Position numbers and translations under genes: made by a program. Below, piece by piece: positions 11,376-41,387 of a stretch of 64,000 nucleotides of DNA. The stretch comes from Pseudomonadota bacterium (GTDB lineage Bacteria; Pseudomonadota; Gammaproteobacteria; Steroidobacterales; Steroidobacteraceae), in the NCBI GenBank assembly GCA_025357635.1, contig JANXOV010000105.1:1-64000 (forward strand), in the 5' to 3' direction. The notes beneath the pieces were generated by a model. That model was given only the letters and a program-made list of their open reading frames with translations. It searched no databases and was not told the origin of the DNA. The stretch's first letter is position 1; each line of letters starts with the position of its first letter.

Positions 11376-11420
11376 CTACAGTAAATCCCTACCTCCTACC
11401 CACTACCCCCCCATGCACGT

Positions 11421-11454
11421 AGAGCGCTAGCCCACTGTCAGTGGGGCCCGCTCT
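11421..11454 (+). terminator. Terminator-like stem-loop after the transglycosylase
   Basis: AGAGCG pairs with CGCTCT and, inside, CCCAC pairs with GTGGG around a TGTCA loop. There is no T-run after the stem, so it may be a weak or factor-dependent terminator or an mRNA-stabilising hairpin between two transcription units. Confidence 0.4.
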
Positions 11455-11494
11455 AGACGACCATGTCCGCTAGCATCAATAGCGAGGTCGCTCA

Positions 11495-20981: not shown

Positions 20982-21455
20982 ATGCGTGCGCGCGGCTTCA
21001 CGCTGATCGAGTTGGTGATTACGGTGGCGATCGTAAGCCTCCTGGCGACGGTCGCCATGCCGCTGGGGAAAATGGCCACGCAGCGGCTGAAGGAATCCGA
21101 ACTGCGCACGGCGCTGCGCGACCTGCGCACCGGCATAGACGCCTACAAGCGTGCCGGGGACGAGGGCCGGATTGCCATCGAGGCCGACACCAGCGGCTAC
21201 CCCGCCTCTCTGGACTTGCTCGTGAACGGCGTCGATGACATCCGTGATCCGGAGAAAAACAAGAAAATCTATTTCATGCGACGCCTGCCGCGTGATCCGC
21301 TTTTCCCGGACAGCGCCGCACCGCCGGCCGAGACATGGGGTCTGCGCAGCTACAAGAGCCCGCCGACGGAGCCGCAGCCAGGGGACGACGTGTTCGACAT
21401 TCATTCACTGTCGCAAGGAGTGGGCCTGAATGGCGTACCGTATCGGGAATGGTAG
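20982..21455 (+). CDS. Type II secretion pseudopilin A
   Basis: A 157-residue pseudopilin with a minimal leader (MRARG^FTLIELVITVAIVSLL) and Glu at +5 after the cleavage Gly. The body resembles GspG-type minor subunits: a long helix, then TSGYPASLDLL, RRLPRDPLFP and TWGLRSYKSPP, ending in GVPYREW. It starts 6 bp after the secretin stop, and its 3' end overlaps the next pseudopilin by 26 bp. The C-terminal PYxEW ending is shared with pseudopilin B. Confidence 0.88.
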   Translation: MRARGFTLIELVITVAIVSLLATVAMPLGKMATQRLKESELRTALRDLRTGIDAYKRAGDEGRIAIEADTSGYPASLDLLVNGVDDIRDPEKNKKIYFMRRLPRDPLFPDSAAPPAETWGLRSYKSPPTEPQPGDDVFDIHSLSQGVGLNGVPYREW

Positions 21456-21828
21456 GTCCCCGTTGAGGGGCTTCACGCTGATCGAATTGATCGTCGTCAT
21501 GGCGATCATCGCAACACTGTTGACGATAGCGGTGCCGCGTTACTTCAAGAGCCTGGAGAAGTCGAAGGAGGCGGTGCTGCGTCAGGACCTGTCGATATTG
21601 CGGGACGCAATCGACAAGTTCAGTTCGGATCTGGGGCACAATCCGGAGACCCTGGAGAACCTGGTGGAGCGAAAGTACATCCGCAGCGTTCCTGTTGACC
21701 CGTTCACCAAGTCCGCGGGTGCCTGGATTGCATCGCTGTCGGAGGATGGCGAGGCCCCCGGAGTCGTCGATGTGCACAGTGGAGCCAAGGGAACCGCCTT
21801 GGACGGGACGCCGTACCTTGAGTGGTGA
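21430..21828 (+). CDS. Type II secretion pseudopilin B
   Basis: A 132-residue pseudopilin. The leader (about 14 residues) ends in Gly before FTLIELIVVMAIIATLLT, with Glu at +5. The globular part has LGHNPETLENLVERKYI, SVPVDPFT and ends in GTPYLEW. The start at ATG 21430 lies inside the end of pseudopilin A, indicating coupled translation. Together with A it probably forms the pseudopilus tip or a second fibre component distinct from GspG. Confidence 0.88.
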   Translation: MAYRIGNGRSPLRGFTLIELIVVMAIIATLLTIAVPRYFKSLEKSKEAVLRQDLSILRDAIDKFSSDLGHNPETLENLVERKYIRSVPVDPFTKSAGAWIASLSEDGEAPGVVDVHSGAKGTALDGTPYLEW

Positions 21829-22941: not shown

Positions 22942-24558
22942 CTATGGGGCGATCCAGGCGCTGTCGGCAACCACGCGGTTGCCGGTTGGGTCGGCGAAGC
23001 GCACCAGGTACCCGCCCTTGGAGGCAAAACGCTGACCCGGCGCAAGTGCAAGCCGGGGGTAATGGCCGGTGATGATGCGATGCTCGAGCATCGTTTCGAC
23101 GCGCTCGACCAGATAATCGCGAACGAAGGTGTCAACCATGTGGTTGATCGTGTCTGAGACGATGCCACAGGCAAGATAGGTATCGGTCTGCTCCTCCAGA
23201 GCGACCACCGGAATCTGCCGGATCCGAAACCAGCCGAGTGGGTAGTCGAGGCGAACACGGCTGCGCTCAGGCAGGTCAAACGGATACGCAAGACGAGTGA
23301 GGTCGCGCCAGGCGGCCGGCAGAGGCGCTCGATCCAGACCCCCCATCCGTCCGGACATGAACACTGTCGACAACTCGGGCGGCGGGGATCCCAGTGCGGC
23401 GATGTCTTCGGCCCGCAACCACAGAACGAGCGCATCGCCAGGTTCTATCTTGCGCACCGCCGCCGACAGTTCGCGCGCGTGCGCACGGGCCGGAATACTG
23501 CGGTTTATGAATGTCAGCCCTTCGCCGGCAAATTCCGCAGCAAGCGGGGCGGCCGGGTCCTTGCCAACGTCGGTTGCGCGATAGACCTGAACGACCCGGT
23601 GCACCCCGGCCGTTGCGCGCCGCCCCTTGAGTTCATGCGCGATCAACTCGGTCTCGAGCAGCACGCCCTTGGAGAAATACAAGTTGTCGAAGTCGTTTTC
23701 CGCGACGACCGGAAGCTCGACATTAGGAAAAAGACACGGCAGCGCAGCCTCCTCGCAAAAACGATGCACCGGTGCCCACGTCTTGCCGCCGATTCCGGAG
23801 ATCACCGCATACACCGGCTCGGCGACAAGCTTTGCGTGCAGCTGCTTTTCCCAGGTTTCGGGCGCACCGGTCAGTTCCCAGACATGCAACTCCCAGTGGC
23901 GGTTGACCTTGAACATCATCCGGCGTGAAGAGCGCAGCCGCGGGCTCTGGGCGCGCACGTAGTGATTCTTGTCTTCAAAGAACTTGGTGAGCACCTCCAG
24001 CACGGCCTTGCGCTTCACTGGATCCGCATCGGGCGTGACAATGGTGGCAAAATGCAGCACCAAATCGGTCACGCCCGGCACCGCGCCGGGCGAGAGCTTC
24101 TTGAGGTAGGAGATCAGCTCCGTCATCGCCGCATCATCGAGCCGGTAGTGCGGCATGAGGTAGCTCAGCTTGTTGCCATCCGCGCGGACTCCCTCGCGGA
24201 TCGCGCGTGCGAGCGTCGCTTCCGTGTACGGGTCGCGATCGGGCCGCATGCCTTCCACAAACGGCAGGTCCAGATCATCGACGGTGCCGGCGCGCGGATG
24301 AAACAAATAACTGCCGGCGATGGGCGGGATTGTCTGACGGCCCTCCATCATGCCCAGGCCGCTGCGCCGGTGACAAGTGACGCAGGCTGCCGCGGCGCCC
24401 CTGATGCGCACACCAGGGTCGCGGTCGGCCTCGAGCGGCGCGCCCGTGGGCAAGACGCCATGGCGGTAAATGGCCTCGCCGACGGATTCAGGCGGCTTCT
24501 GCGCAAGCGCAGAGGATGCCCACACGAGGGCCAGTCCGAGGGCAGCGAAACCGCGCAT
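22942..24558 (-). CDS. Cytochrome c domain fused to periplasmic-binding-protein-like domain
   Basis: A 538-residue exported protein. The signal peptide ends ASSALAQ. A class I-like cytochrome c domain occupies about 25-165, with haem motif CVTCH at 59-63 and a likely distal Met in YLMPHYRL near 128. From about 190 the sequence resembles type I periplasmic-binding folds (LHFATIVTPDADPVKRKAVLEV, LVAEPVYAVISGIGGKTWAPVHRF, ELIAHELKGRRATAG), with no transport genes around. ATG 24558 is preferred over longer options. It lies 23 bp after the Sco gene at the end of the copper operon. A ligand-gated or docking electron carrier is a reasonable guess. Confidence 0.78.
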   Translation of the reverse strand: MRGFAALGLALVWASSALAQKPPESVGEAIYRHGVLPTGAPLEADRDPGVRIRGAAAACVTCHRRSGLGMMEGRQTIPPIAGSYLFHPRAGTVDDLDLPFVEGMRPDRDPYTEATLARAIREGVRADGNKLSYLMPHYRLDDAAMTELISYLKKLSPGAVPGVTDLVLHFATIVTPDADPVKRKAVLEVLTKFFEDKNHYVRAQSPRLRSSRRMMFKVNRHWELHVWELTGAPETWEKQLHAKLVAEPVYAVISGIGGKTWAPVHRFCEEAALPCLFPNVELPVVAENDFDNLYFSKGVLLETELIAHELKGRRATAGVHRVVQVYRATDVGKDPAAPLAAEFAGEGLTFINRSIPARAHARELSAAVRKIEPGDALVLWLRAEDIAALGSPPPELSTVFMSGRMGGLDRAPLPAAWRDLTRLAYPFDLPERSRVRLDYPLGWFRIRQIPVVALEEQTDTYLACGIVSDTINHMVDTFVRDYLVERVETMLEHRIITGHYPRLALAPGQRFASKGGYLVRFADPTGNRVVADSAWIAP

Positions 24559-24581
24559 GGATCGACTGATCAAGCGGCCTC

Positions 24582-25187
24582 TCACCGGGCTGCGAGCAGC
24601 GTACGGTACTCGCGCATCAGTTGATCCGGGGTCACCAGTCCATCGATGCGCCGCCATGGCTGGCCCGGCGCAACGCGCAGCAGCGTCACCGGAGCGTGGC
24701 TCATCTTATCGCCACGGTACACATCGAAGGCACGTTGCGCGGCCAGACTCGTGGCGAGAGTCCCAGTGTAATGTTGCCACCCAGGGCCTGCCTCAAACTG
24801 CGCGGCATACGCACGCAGCCGCTCCGGGGTGTCCTGCTCGGGGTCGATGGAGATCGACATCAAATGCACCTTGCCGCTGTCGTCGCCGAGTCGCTGTTGA
24901 AACTGCGCAAAGATCGCGCTCATCAGCGGACAGACCGAACCGCAGCTGGTGAAAATGAAGTTCAGCAGCACCGGACGCCCGTCGTTGATCTCATCAGGCA
25001 GCGACACGGCTTTGCTGTCATCGCGCACGAGCTTGATGTCCGGCACGGTGTATTGCACCGTGGAGATCAGCAACTGCGAACGGACCGGCGGATTCTGCGC
25101 CATCAACTCTGCGTCACTCGCCGCCGCGCTGCCCGCAGCGAGCGCCAGCGCTGCGATTGCGACATTGAACATATTGGCTCGTGACAT
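24582..25187 (-). CDS. Sco1/SenC-type copper chaperone
   Basis: A 201-residue exported thioredoxin-fold protein. A signal peptide is followed by the copper-binding CGSVCP motif (Cys82, Cys86). SISIDPEQDTPERL and the third copper ligand His164 in DKMSHAPVTLL follow. All Sco ligands are present. Sco proteins deliver copper to CuA or other cupric sites, or act as thiol reductases. No haem-copper oxidase genes are in the window, so here it probably loads the multicopper proteins encoded upstream. ATG 25187 has GAGGAG upstream; the preceding TTG is less likely. Confidence 0.92.
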   Translation of the reverse strand: MSRANMFNVAIAALALAAGSAAASDAELMAQNPPVRSQLLISTVQYTVPDIKLVRDDSKAVSLPDEINDGRPVLLNFIFTSCGSVCPLMSAIFAQFQQRLGDDSGKVHLMSISIDPEQDTPERLRAYAAQFEAGPGWQHYTGTLATSLAAQRAFDVYRGDKMSHAPVTLLRVAPGQPWRRIDGLVTPDQLMREYRTLLAAR

Positions 25188-25383
25188 CAAATGCTCCTCA
25201 TGAGATCCGCTTCAAGGCCAGGCCAAACACTCACCCTGCCCGCTCCGCCCCCACGGATCAAGCGGACAGTCGTCAGTCGGGCTGGCCGCACAATGGACTC
25301 CCGCTTAATGCGAGCGGACCGAAGTCATCCTGTCATCGCACAACCGGTGCAATGCATCGTGACGGGTGACATAACGTCATCCG
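25187..25383. other. Intergenic gap inside the copper operon
   Basis: About 195 bp between the LolA-like gene and the Sco gene. Its only clear feature is the hairpin at the LolA-like stop codon; I see no small gene in it. The gap is long enough for a secondary promoter for the Sco-cytochrome pair. Confidence 0.4.
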
Positions 25384-25386
25384 TCA
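25360..25386 (-). terminator. Hairpin spanning the stop codon of the LolA-like gene
   Basis: TGACGGGTGAC at 25360-25370 pairs with GTCATCCGTCA at 25376-25386 around ATAAC, with one G-T-type mismatch in 11 pairs. It includes the TGA of the upstream gene. There is no T-run on the minus strand, so partial termination or mRNA 3'-end protection is as likely as full termination. Confidence 0.4.
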
Positions 25387-26250
25387 ATGGCGCGGCCGCG
25401 GCGCTGCGTTCGCGCCAGCCGGGGGCGGGTTGCGCGTGTCGACGGTAACACCGCGGTGACGCGTGGTGGGCACGTCAGGCTTGCTGAACATGCGCGCATC
25501 AAGCTGAGGATTGAGCGCGATCTTTTCGATCACCAGTCTATTGACCGTTCCGCCGTCGGCCGAGACCATTTCGATCGTCGTGGGCAATTGCAGGCCTTCG
25601 AAGGCCTGATAACTGCGATAGCTCACTGAGGCCACGCCCGACCGGCCGGCCGCGTTACGGAAATCGCGCTCGAAGCGGGCTTCGAGGAAGGTCTCGGCAT
25701 CGACCCAGACGCGGTGCCTGACGCCCGAGGGCAGTGTCACCTGCAACCTGTAGGTCTTGCGGCCCTCGATTGCATCGATGCCGATCAGCCCGATGGCCGC
25801 ACCGCGGGCGGCATCATCCATCAGCGGCCCGTCGATCACCTGCGCATCGCGCGCGAAACTCAGTTCATCCTCGCTGTAAGCTGTCAGTTCCGGGGCGCCA
25901 TTACCGAGCGGACGCAACTTCCAGCCGTTGCTGCCGTCATAAATGCGCACCGACCGCTGGTTTTGCGCCATGACTTCAAAGCGCGTCTGATTGGGACGCT
26001 GCTGCTCGAGCAGGAATGGCATCTCGCGCCCCGGCACCGCAGCGCTTTCAATATGGCCTGCCCAGGCCATGGTCTTGATCTTGCTCCACGCCTCAACTCC
26101 ACCGCGGGCGCGCGCATTCTTTTCCACGATCTGAGCAGCGGTCAGCTCACCGGCAGGCATCACCGACGGTAGCGGGGCGGGAGCAGCAGCCGCCAACGCA
26201 AAACCACAAGCGAGCGTCAAACAGCCGCCGGCAAGGGCCAGATTTTTCAT
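25384..26250 (-). CDS. LolA-like exported protein 2
   Basis: A 288-residue exported protein. The signal peptide (MKNLALAGGC..., Ala-rich) is followed by ELTAAQIVEKNARARGGVEAW, the opening found in LolA/LolB-fold outer-membrane lipoprotein-sorting-like proteins. A run of beta strands includes IKTMAWAGHIE, VRIYDGSNGWKLRP and YRLQVTLPSGVRHRVWVDA. The C-terminal 25 residues are Pro/Arg-rich. It is a paralogue of the gene directly upstream, sharing the whole architecture. ATG 26250 has GGGG upstream. The fold suggests binding of a hydrophobic or lipid ligand in the periplasm; the role in a copper operon is unknown. Confidence 0.75.
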   Translation of the reverse strand: MKNLALAGGCLTLACGFALAAAAPAPLPSVMPAGELTAAQIVEKNARARGGVEAWSKIKTMAWAGHIESAAVPGREMPFLLEQQRPNQTRFEVMAQNQRSVRIYDGSNGWKLRPLGNGAPELTAYSEDELSFARDAQVIDGPLMDDAARGAAIGLIGIDAIEGRKTYRLQVTLPSGVRHRVWVDAETFLEARFERDFRNAAGRSGVASVSYRSYQAFEGLQLPTTIEMVSADGGTVNRLVIEKIALNPQLDARMFSKPDVPTTRHRGVTVDTRNPPPAGANAAPRPRH

Positions 26251-26267
26251 GACGGCACCCCTTCCGA

Positions 26268-27086
26268 TCACGTCGGCTTGGTGAACCGCGATGCCGCAAG
26301 CGGCGGATTCACCACCACCTTGTCGATACGAATCTTCTCGGTACGCTGCACCCCGTCCACCACGGTTTCGATCACGTGCGGAATCTGCAGACCGTTGACG
26401 GATTTATAATCGCGCAGGTAGACCGATACGGCATGCACCTTCTTATCCAGCCGGCGCGGGGTGCCCTCGATCTTCACTTCCAGGAACGAAGTCGCGTCGA
26501 TCCACTCATGCCGCACCTCACCGCCTTTCAGTGTGAGCGCGAGTTTATAGGCCTCCTTGCCTTCGACCATTTCCGTACCCGCCAACTCGACGCGCGTACC
26601 CTTGGCCGCATAGCCGATGAGCATGCCGTCGAGGTCAGACTGAGCGGCTGCGATTTTCAATTCCTCCGCCGTGTAGGGTTCCACGTCGTTACGATTCAGA
26701 AATGGCCGCAGCTTCCAGCCTTGGGCGCCATCGTAGACCTGCACCGCGGCCTGGCCGTTGAATATGATCTCCAGACGCGACTTGCGACCGCGCTGCAGCT
26801 CCAGCGTGAACGGCAACTGCACCTGTTCTGCTGGGGTGTTGGACGGGGGCGGCGGCGGCGGCATTCCCGGAGCGCTGTAGCGCGGCTGATTGTTGCCGCC
26901 GGCGTCCATCTTGCCCGACCAGCTCAGCGTCTTCACGGCCTGCCAGGGGGCGAGGCCGCCGCGCGCCGCGATGTTGCGGTCGACGATCTCGGCGGCGGTC
27001 ATTTTCGGCGCTGCAGCCAGTGCGCTGCCAGTGCATATCGAGGTCAGCGCCAGCAGCGCGACACCCGCAAATCTTGCTCGTGACAT
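26268..27086 (-). CDS. LolA-like exported protein 1
   Basis: A 272-residue exported protein with the same plan as its downstream neighbour. A signal peptide is followed by KMTAAEIVDRNIAARGGLAPW, then a proline-rich insertion (MPPPPPPSNTP near residue 75). Beta strands follow with VQVYDGAQGWKLRPF, YKLALTLKGGEVRHEWIDA and YKSVNGLQIPHVIETV. Half-barrel LolA-type fold is inferred. ATG 27086 follows AAGGAG. The pair probably arose by tandem duplication. Related proteins often sit beside exported redox enzymes, so a carrier or assembly role is plausible. Confidence 0.75.
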   Translation of the reverse strand: MSRARFAGVALLALTSICTGSALAAAPKMTAAEIVDRNIAARGGLAPWQAVKTLSWSGKMDAGGNNQPRYSAPGMPPPPPPSNTPAEQVQLPFTLELQRGRKSRLEIIFNGQAAVQVYDGAQGWKLRPFLNRNDVEPYTAEELKIAAAQSDLDGMLIGYAAKGTRVELAGTEMVEGKEAYKLALTLKGGEVRHEWIDATSFLEVKIEGTPRRLDKKVHAVSVYLRDYKSVNGLQIPHVIETVVDGVQRTEKIRIDKVVVNPPLAASRFTKPT

Positions 27087-27119
27087 CAAAAACTCCTTGG
27101 TGAAACTGGCGCCAGAGCG

Positions 27120-27605
27120 CTACTGCACGATCAACCCGTCGATACGGACCGCTCCGATCACGACGCTGACCCGGTCGCCCTGCTTGACATGATCGCCTTT
27201 GTTCGAAAAAGTCATCCAATAGGTCTTGCCGTTTACCGGGGTCATCGCTTGACGCAATGGGCCGACCTTTTCCATCACGGGCACCTGCAGCACCACGCGC
27301 GAGATCTCATCCAACATCTGCGGAGTCGCGGCACGTTCGCTGAGCGGAGCGGCTTTCACCGCGTCGATCACCCGGTAATCGAAACGCACCAGTTGTCCGG
27401 ACTCGGCAAGCTTAGCCGACAGCCGGTCCACTCCCCAGGTGTTGGCGTAATACTGCCGCGCCCCCTCGGGCATGCCCGCGGCGCGGCGTGTGACGTGCTT
27501 CGCAGTTTTCGAATGAGCCGGTGCAGCGGCGTTGGCCGGTGAAGCCACCGCGTCCACGGATAACGTCACGGAGACAACGAAAACTAAGGCAAACAAGTGG
27601 TTCAT
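27120..27605 (-). CDS. Exported hypothetical protein
   Basis: A 161-residue protein with a signal peptide (MNHLFALVFVVSVTLSV, cleavage near ANAA). The mature part has YYANTWGVDRLSAKLAESG and LVRFDYRVIDAVKAAPLSE. The C-terminus is a small beta domain with KTYWMTFSNKGDHVKQGD and VSVVIGAVRIDGLIVQ, the last resembling a beta-barrel or OB-like strand set. I do not recognise a family. It is in line with the copper operon, 33 bp before the first LolA-like gene. Confidence 0.65.
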   Translation of the reverse strand: MNHLFALVFVVSVTLSVDAVASPANAAAPAHSKTAKHVTRRAAGMPEGARQYYANTWGVDRLSAKLAESGQLVRFDYRVIDAVKAAPLSERAATPQMLDEISRVVLQVPVMEKVGPLRQAMTPVNGKTYWMTFSNKGDHVKQGDRVSVVIGAVRIDGLIVQ

Positions 27606-27695
27606 GGTCGCATGCTTTGGTGCCATCTCTTCGCGCTACACCCTGCCTAAGCGGTGCACCCGAGTCAAGGCAACACGCCTCGTTTGCTCCGTCCG

Positions 27696-28217
27696 CTAGG
27701 GGGACTTGGTTGGACTTTGCCAGGAGTCCACATTTGCCCCCGGCGCTCCAACCTGTACGGTGCGCTTGCGCGGCTGGATGTACTTCTTGCGTTGCTCGTC
27801 GTTGAGCAGGGCCCGGATCTGGTCGGCGGTCCTGTCTGCGAGGCCCTGCGTCCTGCTCACGCGCAGGGCAGCGGGCACGCTCGTATCGTTCCATAAGGCC
27901 AGCAGCTGTTCGCGCTGGTCGAGCAACACGCTTTTGAGCTCCGCCTGCTGATGGTCGTTGAGATCGAGTTCCCGCGTCATCAATGCTATCCGATCGTCGA
28001 GAGGCGTTGCTTGCGCCGGCAGGGTTGCTTGCCAGGCTGCAAACGTGACCCAGAGCAGCGCGAGTATCAGTTGCCTGACGCGGCTGTGGCCACCATTTCC
28101 ACGCGCTGCGCTTCCGAGGTGCAGCCCAATCCCCGCGCTACCACGCGTCGGGAGGGGTGGTGTGGCCTGGAGGCACCCTCCAGGCCACAGCCGTCTCGAC
28201 GTACTGTCATCAGTCAT
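27696..28217 (-). CDS. Spy/CpxP-like small exported protein (start uncertain)
   Basis: The mature part is a helical protein. After a hydrophobic segment (LILALLWVTFAAWQATLPAQ) come DRIALMTRELDLNDHQQAEL and then ADRTADQIRALLNDEQRKKY. This matches the LTxxQ-like pattern of Spy/CpxP periplasmic proteins, which bind unfolded proteins or metals. ATG 28217 has GAGGA at good spacing, just 8 bp after the giant gene, but it gives about 48 residues before the signal-like helix, and that part contains a perfect hairpin. The true start could be a rarer codon nearer the helix. Confidence 0.55.
   Translation of the reverse strand: MTDDSTSRRLWPGGCLQATPPLPTRGSAGIGLHLGSAARGNGGHSRVRQLILALLWVTFAAWQATLPAQATPLDDRIALMTRELDLNDHQQAELKSVLLDQREQLLALWNDTSVPAALRVSRTQGLADRTADQIRALLNDEQRKKYIQPRKRTVQVGAPGANVDSWQSPTKSP
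28161..28189 (-). terminator. Perfect 13-bp hairpin after the giant gene
   Basis: TGTGGCCTGGAGG pairs perfectly with CCTCCAGGCCACA around a CAC loop. It lies about 37 bp downstream of the stop codon of the 3,294-codon gene, inside the 5' part of the Spy-like reading frame. There is no T-run on either side. It could reduce readthrough from the giant gene, hide the downstream ribosome site, or stabilise the long mRNA. Confidence 0.55.
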
Positions 28218-28225
28218 TCAATTCC

Positions 28226-34200: not shown

Positions 34201-37200
34201 CGCCGGTCGACTGACCGCCGCTGGCGCCAGTGTCGGTCGGCGAACAATCCGCATTGTCGCAATAACGCGCGCCCGGCATCCGCAGATCCCGCGGCAATGG
34301 CACGCGCACCTGGGTGTTGGCGACATTGGCGGCAAGATCCGACGGCGTCCAGTTCGTGACGCCAGGCTGCGCTGCAGAACCATCGACCGGGCCGCCGGCA
34401 TCGTACACCGCGTGCACGCCGGTGACCTTGTAGCGCGTCGACGAGGTATCCACCACCAGCCAGTTCATGAAGGGGAATACTTCGTTGAAGCCGGCATAAC
34501 CGTTCAGGTCGGTGTTGTTGAAAAAGCCAACGCTGCCGTCGCGGTAGTGAATGTTGGTGTTGACCAACGCGAGACCCGGTTCGCAGTCCTGCGAGACGCC
34601 ATCGCCCGCATTTGCCGCCGTACCCGTCGGACCGCAGCCATTGTCGATGAAGGTGCGCGTGGCAAGGTTAGTGCGCCACTGCGTGACCGGCAGGGTCTCA
34701 ACGGTGTCACCCTTGACCGAAATGGTGCCGACCAGGCCGTCGAGCATGATGTCGTTCCACTGGTCGAAAACGGAAATCTTGTACACGCCGTTGGGCATGT
34801 TGTCGAAGTTCGCCGTGGCAACGGTCTTGCCATTAACCTGGGTCAGATCGCATTTCTTGAACGCGAAGTCCTCGGCGTCGGCTGGTCCGATCGAGACGTA
34901 GCACTGCGTGAACGCGTAATGGTCGTAGCTTTCGCTGCTGTAGGTACGTTGATCGGGCGTGCGGCTCATGTGTGCATTGGTCACGTGCACCGTCAACTTG
35001 TGGGTGCACGCTTGATCCCCGGTCCGGCCCGAGCAGTAGCCGGCCTTGCGATTGTTGATGACCTTCGGATTGGCGAAGCCGATCGAAACGTGATAGCCAC
35101 CGGGGCCGAATTCCTGGAAGTAGCCAGGTTCGTCGGGCTTGATGAATGCCTCGTGCGGCTTGCCGCCGTCGAGGGTGTTGGTCTGCAGCCATTCCTCACC
35201 GCGCGCAATGCGGTCGGCGGAAGGCGACGCAACCACTTCGTAAAGGCCCGGATAGAGGTTGGCGATGACGACCTGACCTGCCAGCGGCGAGAGCGTCTTG
35301 CCGTCGGATTCATAGGTCGGGCAAGCCGGAATCATTCCCACCAGGCCATCGCTGCGCTTGGTGATCGGGCAGGCATCATTGCCGGTGACCGGGTCTTTCT
35401 TGCCGGCCAGTGCGTTGGACACCGGCATGTTGAACATGTCGTAGGTGATCTGGCCCGTCGCATCACCCAGGCCGCCGGCCTGGTCGAAGAGCTTGACTTC
35501 AAATCCGCCGAGGCCCGGCTCATTCGGGGCCAACACGTCCACTCCGCCGCCGGCGTCGTTCTCGCCATTGAGCGGATTGTCGTCCTGGTAGACCTGCACG
35601 GAGATCTTCGCGGTGGGCAGTGGCGTGCGCTGCAGCTTGATGTCCACTGAAGACTGGTTGACGGCGATCGGCGCGCCGCCCATGGCATGACCGCAAATGG
35701 CGCCGACATCGCCGGCTATCCATGCGGGATTGCCCGGAGCGTAGTCGCCACAGTCCATTGCAATGTCGAACTGGCGCACGCCGCCAACAACAGTCGGGTC
35801 GGTCACAGGCCCGGTGGCTCCGCCGATAGTGGCGTTGACACCGTCACCCGGCAGAATCGAGATGAAGTAATGCTTGTTGCTGTCGAGATGGACCGCGCGG
35901 GGATCCAGTGGCGCCTTGCTATCACCCAAACGGCACGCGCCGTCGCCGACATCGCACACAGCCGGTGCCCCGCCCAGGGTCTGTCCAAGTTCGCAGGAAA
36001 TCGTGCCGACGCAACCGGCTGCCACCACCGGCATGTGGGCCGTGTGAAAATTGTAGCCCTGGCTCATAACCGGCAGCGCGGGACACGGACGATTGAACGA
36101 ATCAAGCGGCCGCGGATTGACGTTCACCTGGCACTTGGGATCAACCTTGACGGTCTGGTCCTCTTCGATGATCCAGCGAAAATCGGTGATTCCCACGCCG
36201 TTCTTGGCGTCTTTGACGTTGACTGCGAGGTTCGAGGCCGGCAGGAACACGACCGTCGCGAGCGCGGGATCGCTGGTCAACCCGGTCGACGTCTTCGCCT
36301 CGTACTGGAACTGCACGCAGCTTGCGCCGGTGGGTGCCGCGGGAATCAGCGTGGGGCAGTCGGTGCCAGGACCTGCAGCCGTGAAGGAGCCGTCTGCATT
36401 CATCGTGATGCCGGCCGGCGTTCCAACCAGCGCGGCGGCGAGTGCGAAGCCGCTGGGGTTCTTCACGTTGTCGCCCAGCACGCCAGGCGTCGATGAGATG
36501 TAACGCGTGGCAACGTTGCTGGTAAATTGCACGGCTTTGGCCACCGGCTTTGAACCAACGCAGGTCGTGGCCGTGCAGGCCGACAAGTGTACGACCGCGC
36601 AGGCAGCGCCACTCACCGCGCCGTTGCCGCAATAGTTGAAGTCGGCGTCGGTCGTGAAGCCGCTCACCGTGAAAGTGCCGTTCGGGTTCAGGCTTACTGA
36701 CATCCCGGCCGGCGTACCCGAAATGGCAACACCGTAAATGCCCGAGTCATTGGCCATAACGCCTTTGGCCGGATCGGAAATCGCGATCGAATTGCCGACG
36801 ACTGAATAACTGTCGGTGACCGCGGTTGCCGGATTGAGTTGCGCAACCGACCCCGCTCCGGACGTCGCGCCGCCGGCCACCTGCAGGTAAGCCTGCATGC
36901 CGCCGTCGAGCTGGTTGTTGGTGGAAAGACCCAGGGCCCTGTCGAACACCGGATAGGTCGCGGGCTTGTATTGCCCCGGGGTCGTGGTATCCGCGGCCGG
37001 CTGGATGGTTACATCAAAGGTCTTACCCGGCGCGAGGAACACCTCGTTTTGCACGCGCGCAAGTCCGGGCAGCTTGTTGCCGTCCTCGGCCCGTAGCGTC
37101 AGGGGCGCACCAACCACCGACGGTACATGCATGCGCAAGCCTGCATTGACGAAGCGCAGCAGAACGCGCCCTTGAGTCGCGGTGGCGGGAACCGCCATCG

Positions 37201-38110
37201 CGGAGGCGGTTGTATTGCCGGCGTCGAACGAAACTCCATTGATGAGGTAATAGCGCGGGCTGTAATTCACAGCGGGCGGATAGCAGGAGTGCGCAGCGGC
37301 GGATACGCCCACATCACCACATTTTCCAACCTGCCCATCCCATACGGCCGTTTCAGAGAAAGCGGCGTTCAGCACGACCTGTGCGACTTCGGCATTTTGC
37401 GCCGGGTCGATCTCGCTGAACAGCAGCGGCACATCCTGGTCGAACGTGGCTCCGTAGGCTGTCGGCGTGACGGCGGGGTCGGTCACGACCAACACGGCGT
37501 ACAACCCCATCGGTCCTTGTATCGAAGGTTCGGTGCCCGACTCGATCAGGTAGGTGCCCGGACGCAGGTTGTTCCAGACCAATGCATCGCTGCTGCCACC
37601 GGAAAGAACTTCAACGCCAAATGATCGCACTCTGTCCACCTGTGCGGGCGGTGTGAAGGTGGGATCATTGGGGCCGGTGCCACCCAGCGTGCCCGGCCAT
37701 GTGGTGCCCTGAGGACCATGAGTGGGACTGGCCATGCGCTTCGGATTCGCGCCTAAGCCGCCCCCCAATTGACCCACGACGACGAGCGATGTCGGAACCT
37801 TGGCAGGTAGCTGGTTGAACAGAGTGATGGTCAACGGCGAACCTGCCGGCACGCGGATCAACGGGGGCTGCCAGCTGCCGGTCTGGGCAGAGCCATTCAA
37901 GGCTGTGCACGAAACACCGGTTCCGGTCACCGCACCGCAGGTGTAACCCCACATCGGCACGCTATTGCCATCCGGCATGGCCGCAGATTGCGATGACGCA
38001 GTCAGCGTGACAGCGCTTTGGGCAAGAGCAGCACCACTGGCGAACAGGAGAGCGGATGCAGCGAGTCCTGAACGGATCAGATTCGCCTTGAGCATTTTGA
38101 TATTCATCAT
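28226..38110 (-). CDS. Giant secreted cupredoxin / Ig-like / beta-helix protein
   Basis: A 3,294-residue exported protein starting at ATG 38110 (GAGG upstream) with a signal peptide ending GAALAQ. In order: a cupredoxin-like region (about 35-415) aligned in plan with the two upstream multicopper proteins but without their HxH or HCH ligands; Ig/VCBS-like repeats (about 430-640); SdrD/CNA-B-type beta domains (about 830-1,030 and 1,340-1,560); and an IPT/TIG domain near 2,030. A right-handed parallel beta-helix follows (about 2,140-2,900; IQTAIDSANPGDLILVQPGVY, IHHNWIAGNLSTGDGGGV). It ends with two tandem IPT/TIG repeats (about 3,000-3,170) and a beta domain. It is likely cell-surface or extracellular, an adhesin-like scaffold or substrate-binding arm. 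It follows the second copper protein by 12 bp. Confidence 0.85.
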   Translation of the reverse strand: MMNIKMLKANLIRSGLAASALLFASGAALAQSAVTLTASSQSAAMPDGNSVPMWGYTCGAVTGTGVSCTALNGSAQTGSWQPPLIRVPAGSPLTITLFNQLPAKVPTSLVVVGQLGGGLGANPKRMASPTHGPQGTTWPGTLGGTGPNDPTFTPPAQVDRVRSFGVEVLSGGSSDALVWNNLRPGTYLIESGTEPSIQGPMGLYAVLVVTDPAVTPTAYGATFDQDVPLLFSEIDPAQNAEVAQVVLNAAFSETAVWDGQVGKCGDVGVSAAAHSCYPPAVNYSPRYYLINGVSFDAGNTTASAMAVPATATQGRVLLRFVNAGLRMHVPSVVGAPLTLRAEDGNKLPGLARVQNEVFLAPGKTFDVTIQPAADTTTPGQYKPATYPVFDRALGLSTNNQLDGGMQAYLQVAGGATSGAGSVAQLNPATAVTDSYSVVGNSIAISDPAKGVMANDSGIYGVAISGTPAGMSVSLNPNGTFTVSGFTTDADFNYCGNGAVSGAACAVVHLSACTATTCVGSKPVAKAVQFTSNVATRYISSTPGVLGDNVKNPSGFALAAALVGTPAGITMNADGSFTAAGPGTDCPTLIPAAPTGASCVQFQYEAKTSTGLTSDPALATVVFLPASNLAVNVKDAKNGVGITDFRWIIEEDQTVKVDPKCQVNVNPRPLDSFNRPCPALPVMSQGYNFHTAHMPVVAAGCVGTISCELGQTLGGAPAVCDVGDGACRLGDSKAPLDPRAVHLDSNKHYFISILPGDGVNATIGGATGPVTDPTVVGGVRQFDIAMDCGDYAPGNPAWIAGDVGAICGHAMGGAPIAVNQSSVDIKLQRTPLPTAKISVQVYQDDNPLNGENDAGGGVDVLAPNEPGLGGFEVKLFDQAGGLGDATGQITYDMFNMPVSNALAGKKDPVTGNDACPITKRSDGLVGMIPACPTYESDGKTLSPLAGQVVIANLYPGLYEVVASPSADRIARGEEWLQTNTLDGGKPHEAFIKPDEPGYFQEFGPGGYHVSIGFANPKVINNRKAGYCSGRTGDQACTHKLTVHVTNAHMSRTPDQRTYSSESYDHYAFTQCYVSIGPADAEDFAFKKCDLTQVNGKTVATANFDNMPNGVYKISVFDQWNDIMLDGLVGTISVKGDTVETLPVTQWRTNLATRTFIDNGCGPTGTAANAGDGVSQDCEPGLALVNTNIHYRDGSVGFFNNTDLNGYAGFNEVFPFMNWLVVDTSSTRYKVTGVHAVYDAGGPVDGSAAQPGVTNWTPSDLAANVANTQVRVPLPRDLRMPGARYCDNADCSPTDTGASGGQSTGAVFPPQAWGTTMGWQGLLGQNTFIEFGVKPFKASAGTAPAENGGISGMVIYASTRPFDDPALSLQLSWEPGIPRVKVNLYKKEVDASGHEKLTLADTTTTASWDDWSQGFRKGADGTTLLTAGTADKAGKVPNMNCPGQAGDSPFFATLKDSKQWLDADGNTLAYHSQFKCYDGWSQLNQVQPAPYDGLYKFPSVVAIDPANGKSAKSNCLTCVPNPDDGTPMLPAGKYVVEVVMPPGYELVKEEDKNILLGDVYIAPVTQQFGGPGNIFIMPDQAAVNASYNPNNPGSLNLTTNLGATPRHEGDTGSIESFWPCVGAERIVPDLNSLYPGAGQAAPFAGAKRRLCDRKEVTLQNEAAALAKFYIFSSTHIAGHFTGTITNDFAAEFDPFSPQFGEKFGPPNLPVAMRDFTGNEVARVYSDQWGIYNGLYFSSYSVNPPNPTGYVPQMSIACMNDPGPILGPDGTTMITDPAYNPAYSNFCYETPFMPGFTAYMDTPVIPTQSFADGYNLPDTEYPDGTPTIGSVVSDSAKGPWIRWAGSTPARVAFSISGVDPQGTTIDQVTSVTIGATTVTTGPIACVASAGCPSATTTNAIRGRNTWMAQQVAANINAGTSGYTATSTNASATAPYPASVTITAPLGTGADTSAVVVTQVGLTVPATLAMAGGSGTAPSGTLTINCPGGVANDCKKEVQNPNYSGPNATVAPYNQKTITRQYGFGNQCTSPAAGSPTCNTLSSVTIRGVTAPVTGWSTTSITVSVPAGIAPCRVQQRGQTATLCGEMVITAGNGKQSIDAITVTVGGSEPWVVTPNDFATNTGGAVIAPAGKSVKDYTTNLGRMFFSPIQTAIDSANPGDLILVQPGVYRENLIMWKPVRLQGVGANSVTINADAHPAGKMDQWRRQVVCAFGLDLDGRPNLNNVQANFDPTGKYTCPNAMFLKADRIPFEAITGWDASGNGNLAQVLQEPTLMGAYEGAGITVVGRGVRVPRLSTDFWGADPTAAGAFAAGSRYLTAGDCDSTGGTDLNRNYATSNYHCNPSRIDGVSIINSSQGGGGVFVHGWGHNLVIANTRIQGNHGTLAGAINLGNGETPPVFLNDGATCGAGVTTLCPPIPEGTPTGAAIPFGFNTRVHIHNNMLYNNASIGDALFTGTPAGAGGVTVSSGGDNYHIHHNWIAGNLSTGDGGGVQTLGVSFNGRITNNYVLFNQSTNPTLPTNGGGIVIQGANEPRSINGQECGAATDVDCPPGLGDGTGANLIIDGNLILGNSAESGSGGGISLLSINGSEMIAFPLQNSRWYGVTLSNNIIANNVAGWDGGGVSMQDALKVTLANNTIASNDTTASAGALFKTLGAINTGSTPPGCLNFPAQQQNLVCPQDGAPHSPQPAGLVTLAHTPNLIEAIGTLSSVLGVKVLCPAPTGQGFGYTGTLGANGDCMKVSKPRLVNDLFWHNRAFEVNVVDVAGNIVGNGDGTGTPTGTGLLSQQNLIAVMPLLNQSKTGECAVPTTGTVPGTFYYDMGLRTDDVLAGNASFTANKLVSYYSIISGDPQNVVTKNNPVTATGTPFIAEYCNGARVAPEKGDAFKGYNAPPGASETTGLATVFVFNGIRPTATVDEGHNWLNLTYGPLTLNRSAVNTSAADAPELMVASASIGAVGGAYSITGISDAAGAGIVNGLTPATDFFGRPRFAAQTSVGAVEVAVVPPVLTSISPSSGVQGATVPVTLTGSALARTSVINAGADINCAITAATRTSVSANCAIAASAATGARDVTVTTPGGTSNAVTFTVNVAPPNLTLISPTSGIQGRNVTVTLTGTGLSGTSLVTVSGTGVSCTINGTPTATSVSASCAIAATAATGARTVTVTTPVGVSNGLSFTVNLPPPPAPNPALNCPNTCIGGSSTSWGAVSGNVTKTFTLSNSGPGAFKISAISAAKLGGGNGIYTVTGGTCVVGNTVSNGGSCIVIVNFNSQSNFSITLGRLTVTGTASDGSGSYSASRALAGS

Positions 38111-38122
38111 GTTGGTCCTCAC

Positions 38123-39757
38123 CTATTTCGCTTCGTCGATGCTAAAGACCCAGGGGTCCACCAGCATCATCATCATCATTCCGCCTGGGAAGATATTGTT
38201 GGTCGTAATCTCTCGCTCGTTGTGCGAGTGCCACATGTAGGCGAACCCGGCTTCAGAACCAGGATCGTTGGCGATCGTGCCGAATGGCGGGATTGGTGTT
38301 GCACCCACCGAGCGCAGGTTCGCGTCAGGTCCGAGGTAGGGGCTGCCCGAATACCACGCGCCATTGGCCACGATGTTCGGATCAGGGAGAGTGACGGGGC
38401 CGCCGCTGCCGACGCTGCCGAATGGCTTGTCTTCCAGAGCATGCTTGTGATCCGCGCACCATTCGTAGTAGTTGGGCGCGTCGGGCTTGGCAGTGTAGTA
38501 GCCGTTCGCATCGGCATCGCATGGCGCGCCACCGTTACCTTCGAGGCCACCGCTCGGGTTGTTCGAGGTGTGTCCGTGGACGTCCCAGTTCAGACCCTTA
38601 CCGGTCCACTGGAAAATGCCGTCGAGCGTTTGCCCCGGGGTGGTCGTAGTCGTGAACAAGAGCGGGCCAGCAAGGTTATTCGAGCCGCTCGTTTCACTCA
38701 GGAGCAAGTTGCCGTCGCGAGCCAGCAGACGCAGATGGTTGGCGTGCTCATGCAAGGGATGCTGCATGCGGCCTTGGCCAATGACCCGCACCAGGGTGAG
38801 CTCACCCGGATGCATGTGCGGATTGCCGTTGTAGGGCTGATGCGGATACTGCGCGGCGTAGTTGGGGTCCATGTCATCGGGCATGGAGCGGCCATTCACC
38901 AGGAAATACGCAGCCTTGTAGGGTTCGGTTTCCACGTTCATGCAACCGCTCGGCGAGTTGCAGTCAACGCCCGCCTGCTCTTCAGCCTGGCGGTGGATGG
39001 CCGGGTCCATCTCGGACAACTGGAACAAGTATTCACGGTCGTAACAGGCGGCCGGGTTGTTGTACGCGGCGGCTGCGTGCCGGAAGTCGACATCATCTGC
39101 GGCCCGAGCGGGCTTGCTGCCGACCGCGACACAAGTTGCGGCGGCGTTGGTCGGGGCACTGTAGCCAGTGGGCAGGCCACCTGCATCGAGCGTCGGCATG
39201 ACGATCAAGGCACCAAAAAGTCCCAGTTCCACCTGCAGGTTGCCGCGCGTACCGCTGTAGTAAGCGTGCGTGCCCGGAACGTCGGCGACGAAGGTGTAGG
39301 TCACGGCACAGCCGTGCGGCGCTTCCGTCGTCAGGACGCCGGCGGAGGCCGAGCTGCTGCAAGGTCCGGGCGCGGCGGTAACCGTAAACCCCGGAAACAG
39401 GAGCGAGGTGTTGCCGGCGGCTGCCGGCAGGTTATTGGTCAGGGTGACGCTCACCGTTTGTCCTTGAGTGACGATGAGCGTCGGACCCGGGAGTTGCATC
39501 GTGCCGCAGGAGCCGCCAGCGATGGCTGATGGCGCGAAGGCCGGCGCGGCCGAGCCGGCGGAGCAGCCGTAACCCCAGGAATAGACGCTCGCGCCATCGG
39601 GCTGGCTGATATAGCCCGCCTCGGCGTTGAGGTTGAAAACGCCCGAGGCTGCGGTGATGCCGGGAACGGCCGCTTGAATGCCGACTGCCAGCAGCGAGCC
39701 GCCCGTAATTGCAGCGCCGTAGAAGAGCCGCCCGATGAGTGAATTCGTGTGTCGCAT
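38123..39757 (-). CDS. Multicopper-oxidase-like protein with HPLHEH and Met5 run
   Basis: A 544-residue exported cupredoxin-domain protein. Copper-type motifs are HMHPGE (His314, His316), HPLHEHANH (His333, 336, 338, 341) and, near the end, MWHSHNERE (His510, His512). A run of five methionines follows at 527-531. The type 1 copper signature HCHxxxH...M is not present; the equivalent segment early in the protein reads GTHAYYSGT. It therefore carries candidate type 2/3 ligands but no recognisable type 1 Cys. There are several paired Cys in loops. It sits 10 bp after the first copper protein. Function could be oxidase subunit, copper store or scaffold. Confidence 0.8.
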   Translation of the reverse strand: MRHTNSLIGRLFYGAAITGGSLLAVGIQAAVPGITAASGVFNLNAEAGYISQPDGASVYSWGYGCSAGSAAPAFAPSAIAGGSCGTMQLPGPTLIVTQGQTVSVTLTNNLPAAAGNTSLLFPGFTVTAAPGPCSSSASAGVLTTEAPHGCAVTYTFVADVPGTHAYYSGTRGNLQVELGLFGALIVMPTLDAGGLPTGYSAPTNAAATCVAVGSKPARAADDVDFRHAAAAYNNPAACYDREYLFQLSEMDPAIHRQAEEQAGVDCNSPSGCMNVETEPYKAAYFLVNGRSMPDDMDPNYAAQYPHQPYNGNPHMHPGELTLVRVIGQGRMQHPLHEHANHLRLLARDGNLLLSETSGSNNLAGPLLFTTTTTPGQTLDGIFQWTGKGLNWDVHGHTSNNPSGGLEGNGGAPCDADANGYYTAKPDAPNYYEWCADHKHALEDKPFGSVGSGGPVTLPDPNIVANGAWYSGSPYLGPDANLRSVGATPIPPFGTIANDPGSEAGFAYMWHSHNEREITTNNIFPGGMMMMMLVDPWVFSIDEAK

Positions 39758-39767
39758 GGGTGCTCTC

Positions 39768-41387
39768 CTAGATGCTCGGCCCGACGATGATCTCGGTCAT
39801 CATGCCGCCGAAATTTTCGGCGTCGTTTGACAAGTGATCCAATTGCGGTGTGTACAAGTAATACGTGCACGGAGCGCTCGTCGTGCATCCTGCATATTCC
39901 GGCTTGCTTGCGTCCAGGATCACGTCCACAGATTCACCGCCCGCTAGCGTGATCGAGTTGGTGTCGTAGTACATATTGTTGCCGTCCAGGTCGCGCAGCA
40001 AACGCGCGTTGTAGCCGATGACGTGCATGGGCATACCCAGCGAGGCGAGCGTGTGGTACTCGGTGACGTTCAGGTCGGAGAATCGCAGCAGCGCCTTGCC
40101 ACCGGCGGGAATCTTGATCAAAGACCGCATCGGCTGCGTCGTGCGGGTCACGCCGTCGGACTGTTGGGTCGTCAGCGCATCGGGGTTGATCGTATCCGGG
40201 TAGCTGCGTCCATTGAGGAGAAAATACTTGTCCTTGTTGTCGGCGAACGATTCCGGGTTGAACGTCATGCCGACGAAGTGGAAGTTCGGATCGAAGCCGT
40301 GCATCTGGATCGGATACTCGACATCGTATTCAGTGGATCCGTCGCCGTCGTTATAGGCGTACTTCTTGCCAGTCGCATTGGCGGTGGCGTTATTGGCCGG
40401 TAACGGCGTCTGCCCGGTGCACAGAAGATCACTGCAGGTAGCGCCGGTCCCGCCCGTGCTGCTGCTCTGGTTCGCAGTCTGCAGTGCCGAGCGCAGATCG
40501 TTGCCGACGACGATGGAGTTCTGCTTCGGCCGCACGTAGATCTGTCCGACCATGCCCATCTGCAGATGCTCGGGCGGCGAGATGTGGCAGTGCCACATGT
40601 AGGTTCCCGCGTCGGGCGCAAGGTAGTAGTAGGTGAAGCTGCCGCCGATATTAATGGCAACCGAGGCGTCCGGCACGCCGTCGTAGAAAGCCGAGGCGTT
40701 CGGGTAACCGTGGAAGTGCACAGTGTGCTGTTCGAACAAGTCCGGGCGCATGATCTGCCCAACGTTGGTCAGCGTCAGAAACAATTCGTCACCCTCGTCT
40801 ATGGCGATCAGAGGCGCCGGGATGTTGCCGTTCAGAACACCGACATCCATGATCAGCCGCGGGTCGACATGTCCGTCGAGGCAGCCGCCGCCAGACGAGT
40901 GGCCCAAAGGACAGATCGGACTGCCGGTCGAATCTCGAGCCGGTTCCGGATTTGGAACCAGACCGATTGCACCATTGAACTTGTACCCGCTGGGGTCGGG
41001 TGCGCCGACCTTGACGGCGTCCAGAACTCCGTCGGAATCAAGGTTTCCATCGCTTCCATCAAAGTTCGCGTGCGTCGCATCCAGGTTCGATTTGTTGAAC
41101 TCCGCCGCGGTCACCGTGCCGGGTAATCCTTGGGCCATGTTGGCCAGGCCCGAGAGCGGACCAAATGCGAACAGATAGATTTGCGTTCCGTCGGCCATGG
41201 TCGCAAATCCATCACCGCCGGAGATCTGCTGGCACTTGATGCCCGGGTTCGGCTTTCCATTGATCAGCGGATGCAGTTTCGTATGCGTAGGGCACTGCAC
41301 CCGAAACGACTGTGCCGCCGCCGGCAGCGCAACAAGCGCCAAAAGAATCGCTGGTAACCCGCGGCGAAAAAACTGTGTGCTAAACAT
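39768..41387 (-). CDS. Multicopper oxidase-like protein with type 1 copper site
   Basis: A 539-residue exported protein, first gene of the copper operon; ATG 41387 has GGAGG seven bases upstream. After the signal peptide, an N-terminal insert with an Asp/Gly calcium-type loop (DGSDGNLDSDG near 110-120) precedes the cupredoxin core. HTVHFHGY (His221, 224, 226) resembles the HWHG motif. MWHCHISPPEHLQMGM gives a type 1 set: Cys267, His268 or His274, and Met277/279. The gap between HCH and the next His is five residues, not the usual three. The second domain has GMPMHVIGY in place of HPxHLHG. With the type 1 site in the first half it resembles two-domain oxidases of type C or nitrite-reductase plan. 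The substrate is unknown. Confidence 0.85.
   Translation of the reverse strand: MFSTQFFRRGLPAILLALVALPAAAQSFRVQCPTHTKLHPLINGKPNPGIKCQQISGGDGFATMADGTQIYLFAFGPLSGLANMAQGLPGTVTAAEFNKSNLDATHANFDGSDGNLDSDGVLDAVKVGAPDPSGYKFNGAIGLVPNPEPARDSTGSPICPLGHSSGGGCLDGHVDPRLIMDVGVLNGNIPAPLIAIDEGDELFLTLTNVGQIMRPDLFEQHTVHFHGYPNASAFYDGVPDASVAINIGGSFTYYYLAPDAGTYMWHCHISPPEHLQMGMVGQIYVRPKQNSIVVGNDLRSALQTANQSSSTGGTGATCSDLLCTGQTPLPANNATANATGKKYAYNDGDGSTEYDVEYPIQMHGFDPNFHFVGMTFNPESFADNKDKYFLLNGRSYPDTINPDALTTQQSDGVTRTTQPMRSLIKIPAGGKALLRFSDLNVTEYHTLASLGMPMHVIGYNARLLRDLDGNNMYYDTNSITLAGGESVDVILDASKPEYAGCTTSAPCTYYLYTPQLDHLSNDAENFGGMMTEIIVGPSI

Follow-up and report, generated by a model that had tools for sequence, protein, structure and literature searches.

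The first 64,000 nucleotides of contig JANXOV010000105.1 (assembly GCA_025357635.1, a genome of the Steroidobacteraceae), referred to here as the window, carry on the minus strand a run of nine open reading frames (ORFs), g1 to g9, read from 41387 down to 22942; a check against the ORF list found all nine at their coordinates, as an earlier note on this DNA had described them. The first two encode proteins resembling multicopper oxidases (MCOs) and the third a giant protein, and the question raised by the locus is whether g1 and g2 are two separate oxidases, as that note held, or share one active site. Judged from their sequences they appear not to be two separate enzymes, because neither ligand set is complete, and we put at roughly two in three the probability that they form an exported, obligately hetero-oligomeric MCO with its site divided between g1 and g2. 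The features which carry this reading are:

39768..41387, minus strand: g1, secreted two-cupredoxin MCO-like protein, 539 amino acids from ATG; domain 1 has predicted type-1 copper ligands and half of a trinuclear centre
40707..40727, minus strand: HTVHFHG of g1; H221 (type-1), H224 and H226 (trinuclear); aligned to HTIHWHG in domain 1 of 3g5w
40551..40592, minus strand: HCHISPPEHLQMGM of g1; H266 and H268 (trinuclear), C267, H274 and M279 (type-1); aligned to domain 1 of 3g5w
38123..39757, minus strand: g2, secreted two-cupredoxin MCO-like protein, 544 amino acids; domain 1 is ligand-free and domain 2 has the other predicted trinuclear half
38735..38761, minus strand: HPLHEHANH of g2; H333, H336, H338 and H341; aligned to HAIHTHGH in domain 2 of 3g5w
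38222..38233, minus strand: WHSH of g2; H510 and H512, preceding a GGMMMMM strand
28226..38122, minus strand: g3, giant secreted protein, 3298 amino acids; a ligand-free two-domain MCO fold at the N-terminus, then a long body
36803..38053, minus strand: N-terminal two-cupredoxin module of g3 (g3N), from an AlphaFold 2 (AF2) model and its matches to solved structures

Both the motif patterns and the sorting of ligands into type-1, type-2 and type-3 copper sites follow what is familiar from MCOs, and alignments to 3g5w, the two-domain oxidase of N. europaea, support them: the g1 motifs fell in domain 1 and HPLHEHANH of g2 in domain 2, and because of this mapping the trinuclear histidines would be four from g1 and four from g2. 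At sequence level the type-1 ligands, four in number, thus all belong to g1, as does one half of the eight trinuclear histidines, every one of these residues lying in its domain 1; the other four histidines are in domain 2 of g2, which lacks a type-1 site. We read WHSH of g2, before its closing GG-M strand, as matching HDH of 3g5w, where the program aligned NWDVHGH instead. A two-domain MCO has eight trinuclear histidines, four per domain (PMC3600357; this paper, PMC13151041, PMC5566968 and PMC12016527 are cited from excerpts).

The same division was seen among relatives, in alignments which leave out proteins containing X or shorter than 350-400 amino acids, and loci L001 and L002. H221, H224, H266, C267, H268, H274 and M279 of g1 were present in 93 of 93 rows and H226 in 92 (counts which are partly built in, for a reason given below), and H333, H336, H338 and H341 of g2 were each present in 90 of 90; H510 and H512 were found in all 78 rows with letters there, 12 of the 90 having none at these positions. 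The g3N alignment (77 rows) held just two conserved histidines, both isolated (H135 in 74/75, H332 in 77/77). A single scan of genome contigs with g1 gave 141 loci, of which the best 80 were kept, and counts out of 80 refer to these. Both g1 patterns, HxxHxHG and HCHx4-6Hx3-5M, occurred in 79/80, the exception (L073) having Ser in HXHG, and the domain-2 set HPxHxHxxH occurred in 0/80. HPxHxHxxH and [WY]HSH[ND] were present in all 74 complete g2 genes and HCH in none of 77; a looser HxHG was found in 54 of the 77, always within the domain-2 HPxHxHG. No HXHG, HCH, HPxHxH or [WY]HxH motif was found in g3N (0/73). If the ligands are truly divided, searches requiring all MCO motifs in one protein would overlook the family, and either subunit expressed singly would be inactive.

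Two further motifs of g2, HMH (H314 and H316; 38810-38818, minus strand) and CxxH (C434 and H437; 38447-38458, minus strand), were conserved in 89-90 of 90 rows; together with the conserved Met-rich MMMMM strand they are unexplained by the usual MCO sites and might form an extra metal site.

The closest solved relatives of g1, g2 and g3N are two-domain MCOs (3g5w, 2zwn and 3gdc); both domains of g2 align to 3g5w, and domain 2 of g1 aligns weakly. Residues 24-440 of g3, modelled with AlphaFold from 46 rows, gave a pLDDT (predicted local distance difference test) of 83.9 and a pTM (predicted template modelling score) of 0.85, and the model, compared by VIA-align over residues 11-406, was matched best by 3g5w (Z 24.9, root-mean-square deviation 3.1, 279 aligned of 318) and 2zwn (Z 24.8, root-mean-square deviation 3.3, 277 aligned), with copper nitrite reductases next at Z 23-24. 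As these top matches are tied within 1-2 Z, the model shows the fold and not the exact subfamily, and the N-terminus of g3 is thus modelled as a complete two-domain MCO/nitrite-reductase fold without a copper-ligand motif. The body which follows has a NosD-like beta-helix match (below cut-off) and TIG and choice-of-anchor repeats, with the NCBIfam choice-of-anchor Z repeat at 38.4 against a cut-off of 30 and TIG passing its cut-off when one piece was scanned alone (22.6 versus 20.9 bits).

Both 3g5w (the N. europaea blue copper oxidase) and 2zwn (a metagenomic laccase) are what we take to be type C two-domain MCOs, which resemble this system in the fold of g3N, in sequence kinship with g1 and g2 and in the type-1 copper predicted for the N-terminal domain of g1. 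Each protomer here has two cupredoxin domains and g1 only has type-1 ligands in the N-terminal one, while the trinuclear halves lie on separate polypeptides; the known type C enzymes are homotrimers with both ligand sets on every chain, whereas here the sets are on different products and a third chain has none. In two-domain MCO trimers the trinuclear cluster sits between neighbouring monomers, one lending histidines of its domain 1 and the other those of its domain 2 (PMC13151041). Because two-domain MCOs are trimers with such an interprotomer centre, the likeliest enzyme would be a heterotrimer of g1, g2 and g3 that has a single active site; a trimer of g1, g2 and g3N would have exactly one intact trinuclear interface. 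Six-domain MCOs (ceruloplasmin, MnxG) have six cupredoxins and one trinuclear site (PMC3600357), as the proposed complex would; membership of this single-chain class was rejected, since the six cupredoxins here span three ORFs, not one polypeptide.

A hint of one complex, independent of the ligands and read from gene fusions, comes from a diverged second lineage, in which g1 carries the giant body at its N-terminus, where in the main lineage the body follows the C-terminus of g3N. The body and g1 form single frames of 2671 amino acids in L125, 2456 in L127 and 1137 in L126 (cut by a contig end), each followed by g2, and L154 has a body and g1 frame of 1220 amino acids (beginning after a stop codon, with just the C-terminal part of the body), also followed by g2. 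A separate g3N-like gene lies further on in L126 and L154; L125 and L127 reach the contig edge before that position. The same body on either partner is expected if both sit in one complex, which would suit a single particle. Neighbours in this lineage include a secretin gene (L126) and Sco and g9 homologues (L125, L154). Another giant-like body, cut by the end of its region, lies in genome G239 at L153:15980-19897, with distant homologues of Sco and g9 3-4 kb away.

The rest of the operon, with which the conservation of the neighbourhood can be judged, is as follows:

27696..28217, minus strand: g4, small Spy/LTXXQ-like protein; Pfam match below cut-off; patchy among relatives
27120..27626, minus strand: g5, protein that is conserved and probably secreted; no family match
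26268..27089, minus strand: g6, LolA-like protein; Pfam match below cut-off
25384..26271, minus strand: g7, second LolA-like protein, resembling g6
24582..25190, minus strand: g8, Sco/SenC copper chaperone (Pfam)
22942..24657, minus strand: g9, monohaem cytochrome c with a C-terminal domain read as periplasmic-binding-like; MofC-like

The carriers are bacteria of soils and iron-rich waters, and among the 80 loci they include Acidobacteria, Burkholderiales, Gallionellaceae, unclassified gammaproteobacterial metagenome-assembled genomes and others. On the same strand downstream of g1, g2 was found in 76/80 loci and g3 in 73/80, and the misses are contig ends, where no more than 392 (g2) or 1887 bases (g3) follow g1. 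This retention of gene order in other genera and another phylum is beyond chance. The earlier note had proposed a self-contained extracellular copper-oxidase system and had named the lack of a conserved neighbourhood in a synteny search as its refutation; the order proved to be kept across genera and a phylum boundary, and the proposal stands. Its nine genes as a unit do not. We compared 27 proteobacterial regions extending beyond g3 and 11 acidobacterial regions, all chosen by us (L107, L128 and L131 are apparently one genome), and treated histidine-kinase and u41 matches at 24-40% as noise. Within 9 kb of g3, the proteobacterial regions held g5 and g6 in 27/27 each, g9 in 25/27, Sco in 19/27 and g4 in 8/27. 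The two g9 misses (L129, L131) are regions trimmed short of its position, and of the eight regions without Sco in that range, three have it at another place on the contig (ahead of g1 in L022 and L030, at a greater distance in L121). The acidobacterial regions held g5 and g6 in 11/11 each, g4 in 4/11, and Sco and g9 in 0/11; any count for g7 depends on that for g6, as both queries match the same paralogues. The core common to Proteobacteria and Acidobacteria is therefore g1-g2-g3-g5-g6, with g4 patchy, and g9 and Sco accompany this lineage in proteobacteria only.

Searched genome-wide, g9 homologues (E <= 1e-20) were present in 28/40 genomes and all 12 lacking one were acidobacterial; the sole acidobacterial g9 match (G228, 36%) belongs to the second lineage. 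In the window's own family the distribution was patchy, with a g1 match at E <= 1e-50 in 32 genomes besides that of the window among 200 searched; the single genome of the same genus (82% complete) gave no match at this threshold, and 4/34 genomes of a Sideroxydans-group genus did. One Sideroxydans-group genome (L159) has the order g1 g2 g3 g5 g6 g8 g9, with secretion genes upstream. On a Paraburkholderia F2 plasmid, the six operon genes ahead of an annotated 'ABC transporter substrate-binding protein' (g9) are annotated as hypothetical.

Secretion genes are also found in the window, outside the coordinates of the nine genes, on the plus strand and converging on the operon:

12748..13185, plus strand: GspG major pseudopilin; NCBIfam GspG 175.1 bits, cut-off 88.85
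13195..14373, plus strand: GspF; T2SSF above the Pfam cut-off
14370..16061, plus strand: GspE/PilB-type ATPase; T2SSE above the Pfam cut-off
16003..18558, plus strand: four small proteins of the assembly apparatus; PilN-like match below cut-off in one, no Pfam match in two
18555..20975, plus strand: TPR-secretin-cohesin outer-membrane channel; Secretin above the Pfam cut-off
20982..21828, plus strand: two minor pseudopilins

The secretin and the ATPase fall below the NCBIfam GspD/PilQ and GspE/PilB cut-offs, suggesting an atypical subtype of type II secretion system. The same genes lie upstream of g1 and in its direction in nine loci (L028, L030, L035, L062, L085, L086, L096, L097 and L102), with Sco between them and g1 in L030 and L086 and g9 there in L097. 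A close secretin copy (at least 39%) was found on the operon contig in 22 of 27 proteobacterial carrier genomes, a count made without a random-position control (21/26 scripted, at 3.5 to 36 kb from g9, the larger distances spanning the operon itself, plus G237, where it is upstream of g1 in L096); of the five unlinked genomes, G208, G220 and G226 have g9 less than 3 kb from a contig end, as does G234 for one of its two g9 copies, and G201 is unexplained. From this linkage we infer that the type II system exports g1-g3. An atypical type II system is said, in the title of a 2006 paper by Mehta, to export OmpB of Geobacter, a precedent for MCO export. A lytic transglycosylase gene (SLT and DUF4124; 10746-12763 of the window, plus strand) recurs near the operon in 10/27 proteobacterial regions (e.g. 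L104, L117, L161 and L162); in the window a histidine kinase gene follows it, and the two may have to do with regulation and passage through the cell wall.

The cytochrome g9 has one CXXCH, and a profile search of the PDB matched its cytochrome parts only. MofC-like proteins consist of a cytochrome c domain and a periplasmic-binding domain (He et al., PMC5566968), and by this description, rather than by the sequence of MofC, g9 appears MofC-like, its periplasmic-binding part being our own reading. Homologues of g9 over more than 500 residues adjoin single-chain MCO frames in L148 (38%) and L152 (32%), and another (L149, 36%) has such a frame 9 kb off on the same contig. The frames of L148 (2167 amino acids; HWHG, HPVHFH and HCH..H..M) and L152 (762 amino acids; HVHG, HPLHIH and HCH..H..M) have all their motifs in one chain with the type-1 motif on the C-terminal side, and we read them as relatives of MofA/OmpB. 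The extracellular OmpB/MofA oxidases of Geobacter and Leptothrix resemble the present system in being extracellular MCOs with a MofC-like partner and, in some, Sco (PMC5566968). Placing the catalytic part here among these single-chain enzymes was rejected, as it has no chain with all the MCO motifs, in contrast to L148 and L152. The earlier note saw the cytochrome as the acceptor; as an MCO hands its electrons to O2, the flow could run in either direction.

Clusters of this type have been noted before, although the earlier note knew of no named system with such a composition. He et al. (2017, PMC5566968) described a 'three tandem MCO' cluster in Sideroxydans, and Keffer et al. (2025, PMC12016527) found Slit_1812-1818 of S. 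lithotrophicus ES-1, most of all Slit_1816, higher in late magnetite cultures than on Fe(II)-citrate. These are a predicted cytochrome, SCO1/SenC, small proteins, the large cupredoxin Slit_1816 and the MCO-motif proteins Slit_1817 and Slit_1818, with similar clusters in Paraburkholderia, Ralstonia, Anaeromyxobacter and Steroidobacteraceae (PMC12016527). The window and L159 share this gene content and order (MCO, MCO, giant cupredoxin, small proteins, Sco, cytochrome), and so the cluster type and its possible role in the oxidation of solid Fe(II) are prior work. In the excerpts of these papers the proteins are treated as separate MCOs and the account includes no divided site, swapped fusion or secretion system; 'secretion' gave no match in the main text of PMC12016527. 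A search of the open-licence literature found no mention of a split or heterotrimeric MCO, a divided site, a swapped fusion or a secretion link, and the locus tags Slit_1816-1818 only in PMC12016527; copper, MCO and secretion gave no match in PMC8788666 or PMC12442390. The divided site, the secretion link and the cross-phylum core appear to be new. A divided site, if real, would explain why three magnetite-induced 'cupredoxin' proteins of Sideroxydans form a set, open a concrete test (co-expression of the three genes) and connect the oxidation of iron, manganese or organic matter with an exported oxidase of soil bacteria that has been little studied.

Taken together, g1, g2 and g3N may assemble as a pseudo-trimer of six cupredoxins, resembling the homotrimeric two-domain MCOs, with a single type-1 and trinuclear site at the interface of g1 domain 1 and g2 domain 2, and with g3 as a ligand-free third protomer which tethers the enzyme to its giant beta-rich body. 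After Sec export, Sco (g8) would aid copper loading and the neighbouring type II system would carry the enzyme out. An extracellular donor, too big or insoluble for entry, would pass electrons to the type-1 copper of g1, where a Met axial ligand makes a moderate potential likely, and by MCO chemistry O2 would be reduced at the g1/g2 trinuclear centre. Our guesses are that g9 acts as donor, alternative acceptor or sensor, and g5-g7 in periplasmic assembly or as carriers. To this fuller picture, a 'ceruloplasmin in three pieces' whose trinuclear cluster forms only when two gene products meet, whose dead third protomer anchors the giant extracellular body, which leaves the cell by type II export in Proteobacteria and which in both Acidobacteria and Proteobacteria oxidises extracellular solids or polymers, we give even odds.

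Several points weigh against this account. The g1 loci were fetched with six peptide patterns, two of them inside ligand motifs, so that the g1 counts are partly built in; all eight ligands were nevertheless kept in the 10 of 93 rows from loci found without those patterns or genomes, and g2 and g3 rows were not selected by their own motifs. Alignment rows are interrelated and not independent. An AlphaFold model in which g1 and g2 of L052 were joined into a single read-through chain gave a pLDDT of 46.6 and a pTM of 0.35, which we count neither way. A close secretin copy (at least 39%) was found on the operon contig in 22 of 27 proteobacterial carrier genomes, a count made without a random-position control (21/26 scripted, at 3.5 to 36 kb from g9, the larger distances spanning the operon itself, plus G237, where it is upstream of g1 in L096); of the five unlinked genomes, G208, G220 and G226 have g9 less than 3 kb from a contig end, as does G234 for one of its two g9 copies, and G201 is unexplained. 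The acidobacterial regions have no pseudopilins (0/11), g9 or Sco and only weak secretin matches (2/11), and because of these absences acidobacterial export must differ. The window's genome gave no Paired_CXXCH_1 multihaem match, and hence no sign of a Sideroxydans-type iron oxidiser.

That both chains are incomplete in ligands also fits a different account, in which g1 is a blue-copper (type-1) electron carrier with a vestigial second site and its partner g2 binds copper or another metal but is no oxidase, the two sharing no trinuclear centre; degenerate cupredoxins which merely carry electrons or bind metal do exist. Relaxed selection, however, should not hold the matching trinuclear fours (nearly) invariant while the reciprocal sets vanish, g2 is missing beside g1 only in the four loci cut by contig ends, and g1, g2 and g3N all share a fold with its active site between protomers, and we consider this account unlikely. 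For the divided oxidase itself, solid Fe(II) would be the best lead as donor, from the Sideroxydans proteome. In heterotrophs such as Paraburkholderia and Acidobacteria the same enzyme might instead act on Mn(II), on humics or phenolics, or on an organic compound particular to the host. Acidobacteria and Burkholderia/Paraburkholderia, which are generally heterotrophs, make up many of the carriers; the missing multihaem match in the window's genome points the same way, as do the OmpB/MofA systems, for which, with their MofC-like partner, Mn(II) or Fe has been proposed, while the sole expression evidence found is for magnetite (PMC12016527, in excerpt). We hold such a donor to be a serious possibility, if rather short of an even chance. 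Acidobacterial genomes, including G216, hold up to five g1 copies each, which suggests variants for different donors and is also in keeping with it.

A role in copper handling (detoxification or acquisition), and not as an energy or nutrient oxidase, might be read from the Sco chaperone in the operon and from CusB-like and CusA/CzcA genes directly past g6 in the acidobacterial L138 and L142. A giant exported body with a linked secretion system would be costly for copper detoxification, however, no operon gene reached an NCBIfam copper-resistance cut-off, and Slit_1816 was raised on magnetite, with no copper induction described in the excerpts of PMC12016527, making this role improbable. In these two regions (L138:5248-10073 and L142:4380-9175) the genes right after g6 encode a CusB-like adaptor, which in L138 includes heavy-metal-binding and YHS domains, and a CusA/CzcA pump; similar CusB/CusA-type genes were seen by eye 4-7 kb from g6 in L144 and L146, which may tie these loci to copper supply or efflux.

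The gene labels given in the earlier note were fair, though several are weak: g1, g2 and g8 scored above Pfam cut-offs (Cu-oxidase_3 at 3.6e-16 and 1.2e-8 and SCO1/SenC at 2.1e-20, respectively), whereas LTXXQ in g4, LolA_like in g6 and g7, cytochrome c in g9 and TIG in g3 were all below cut-off in a whole-protein scan; g5 gave no match in the Pfam scan. Promoter-like and terminator-like sites in the operon stretch were no more frequent than in shuffles, so that these scans give a single transcript no support, and the 64-kb window gave no tRNA and no Rfam match. By ORF coordinates there are gaps of 10 nucleotides (g1-g2), 0 (g2-g3), 8 (g3-g4), 69 (g4-g5) and 30 (g5-g6), an overlap of 4 (g6-g7) and a gap of 193 (g7-g8); g8 and g9 overlap in the ORF list, which becomes a gap of 23 nucleotides if g9 begins at the Met ahead of its signal peptide. 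The genome of the window (4.29 Mb, the window being its contig 55) carries one strong g1 copy and a second match at E 6.1e-4.

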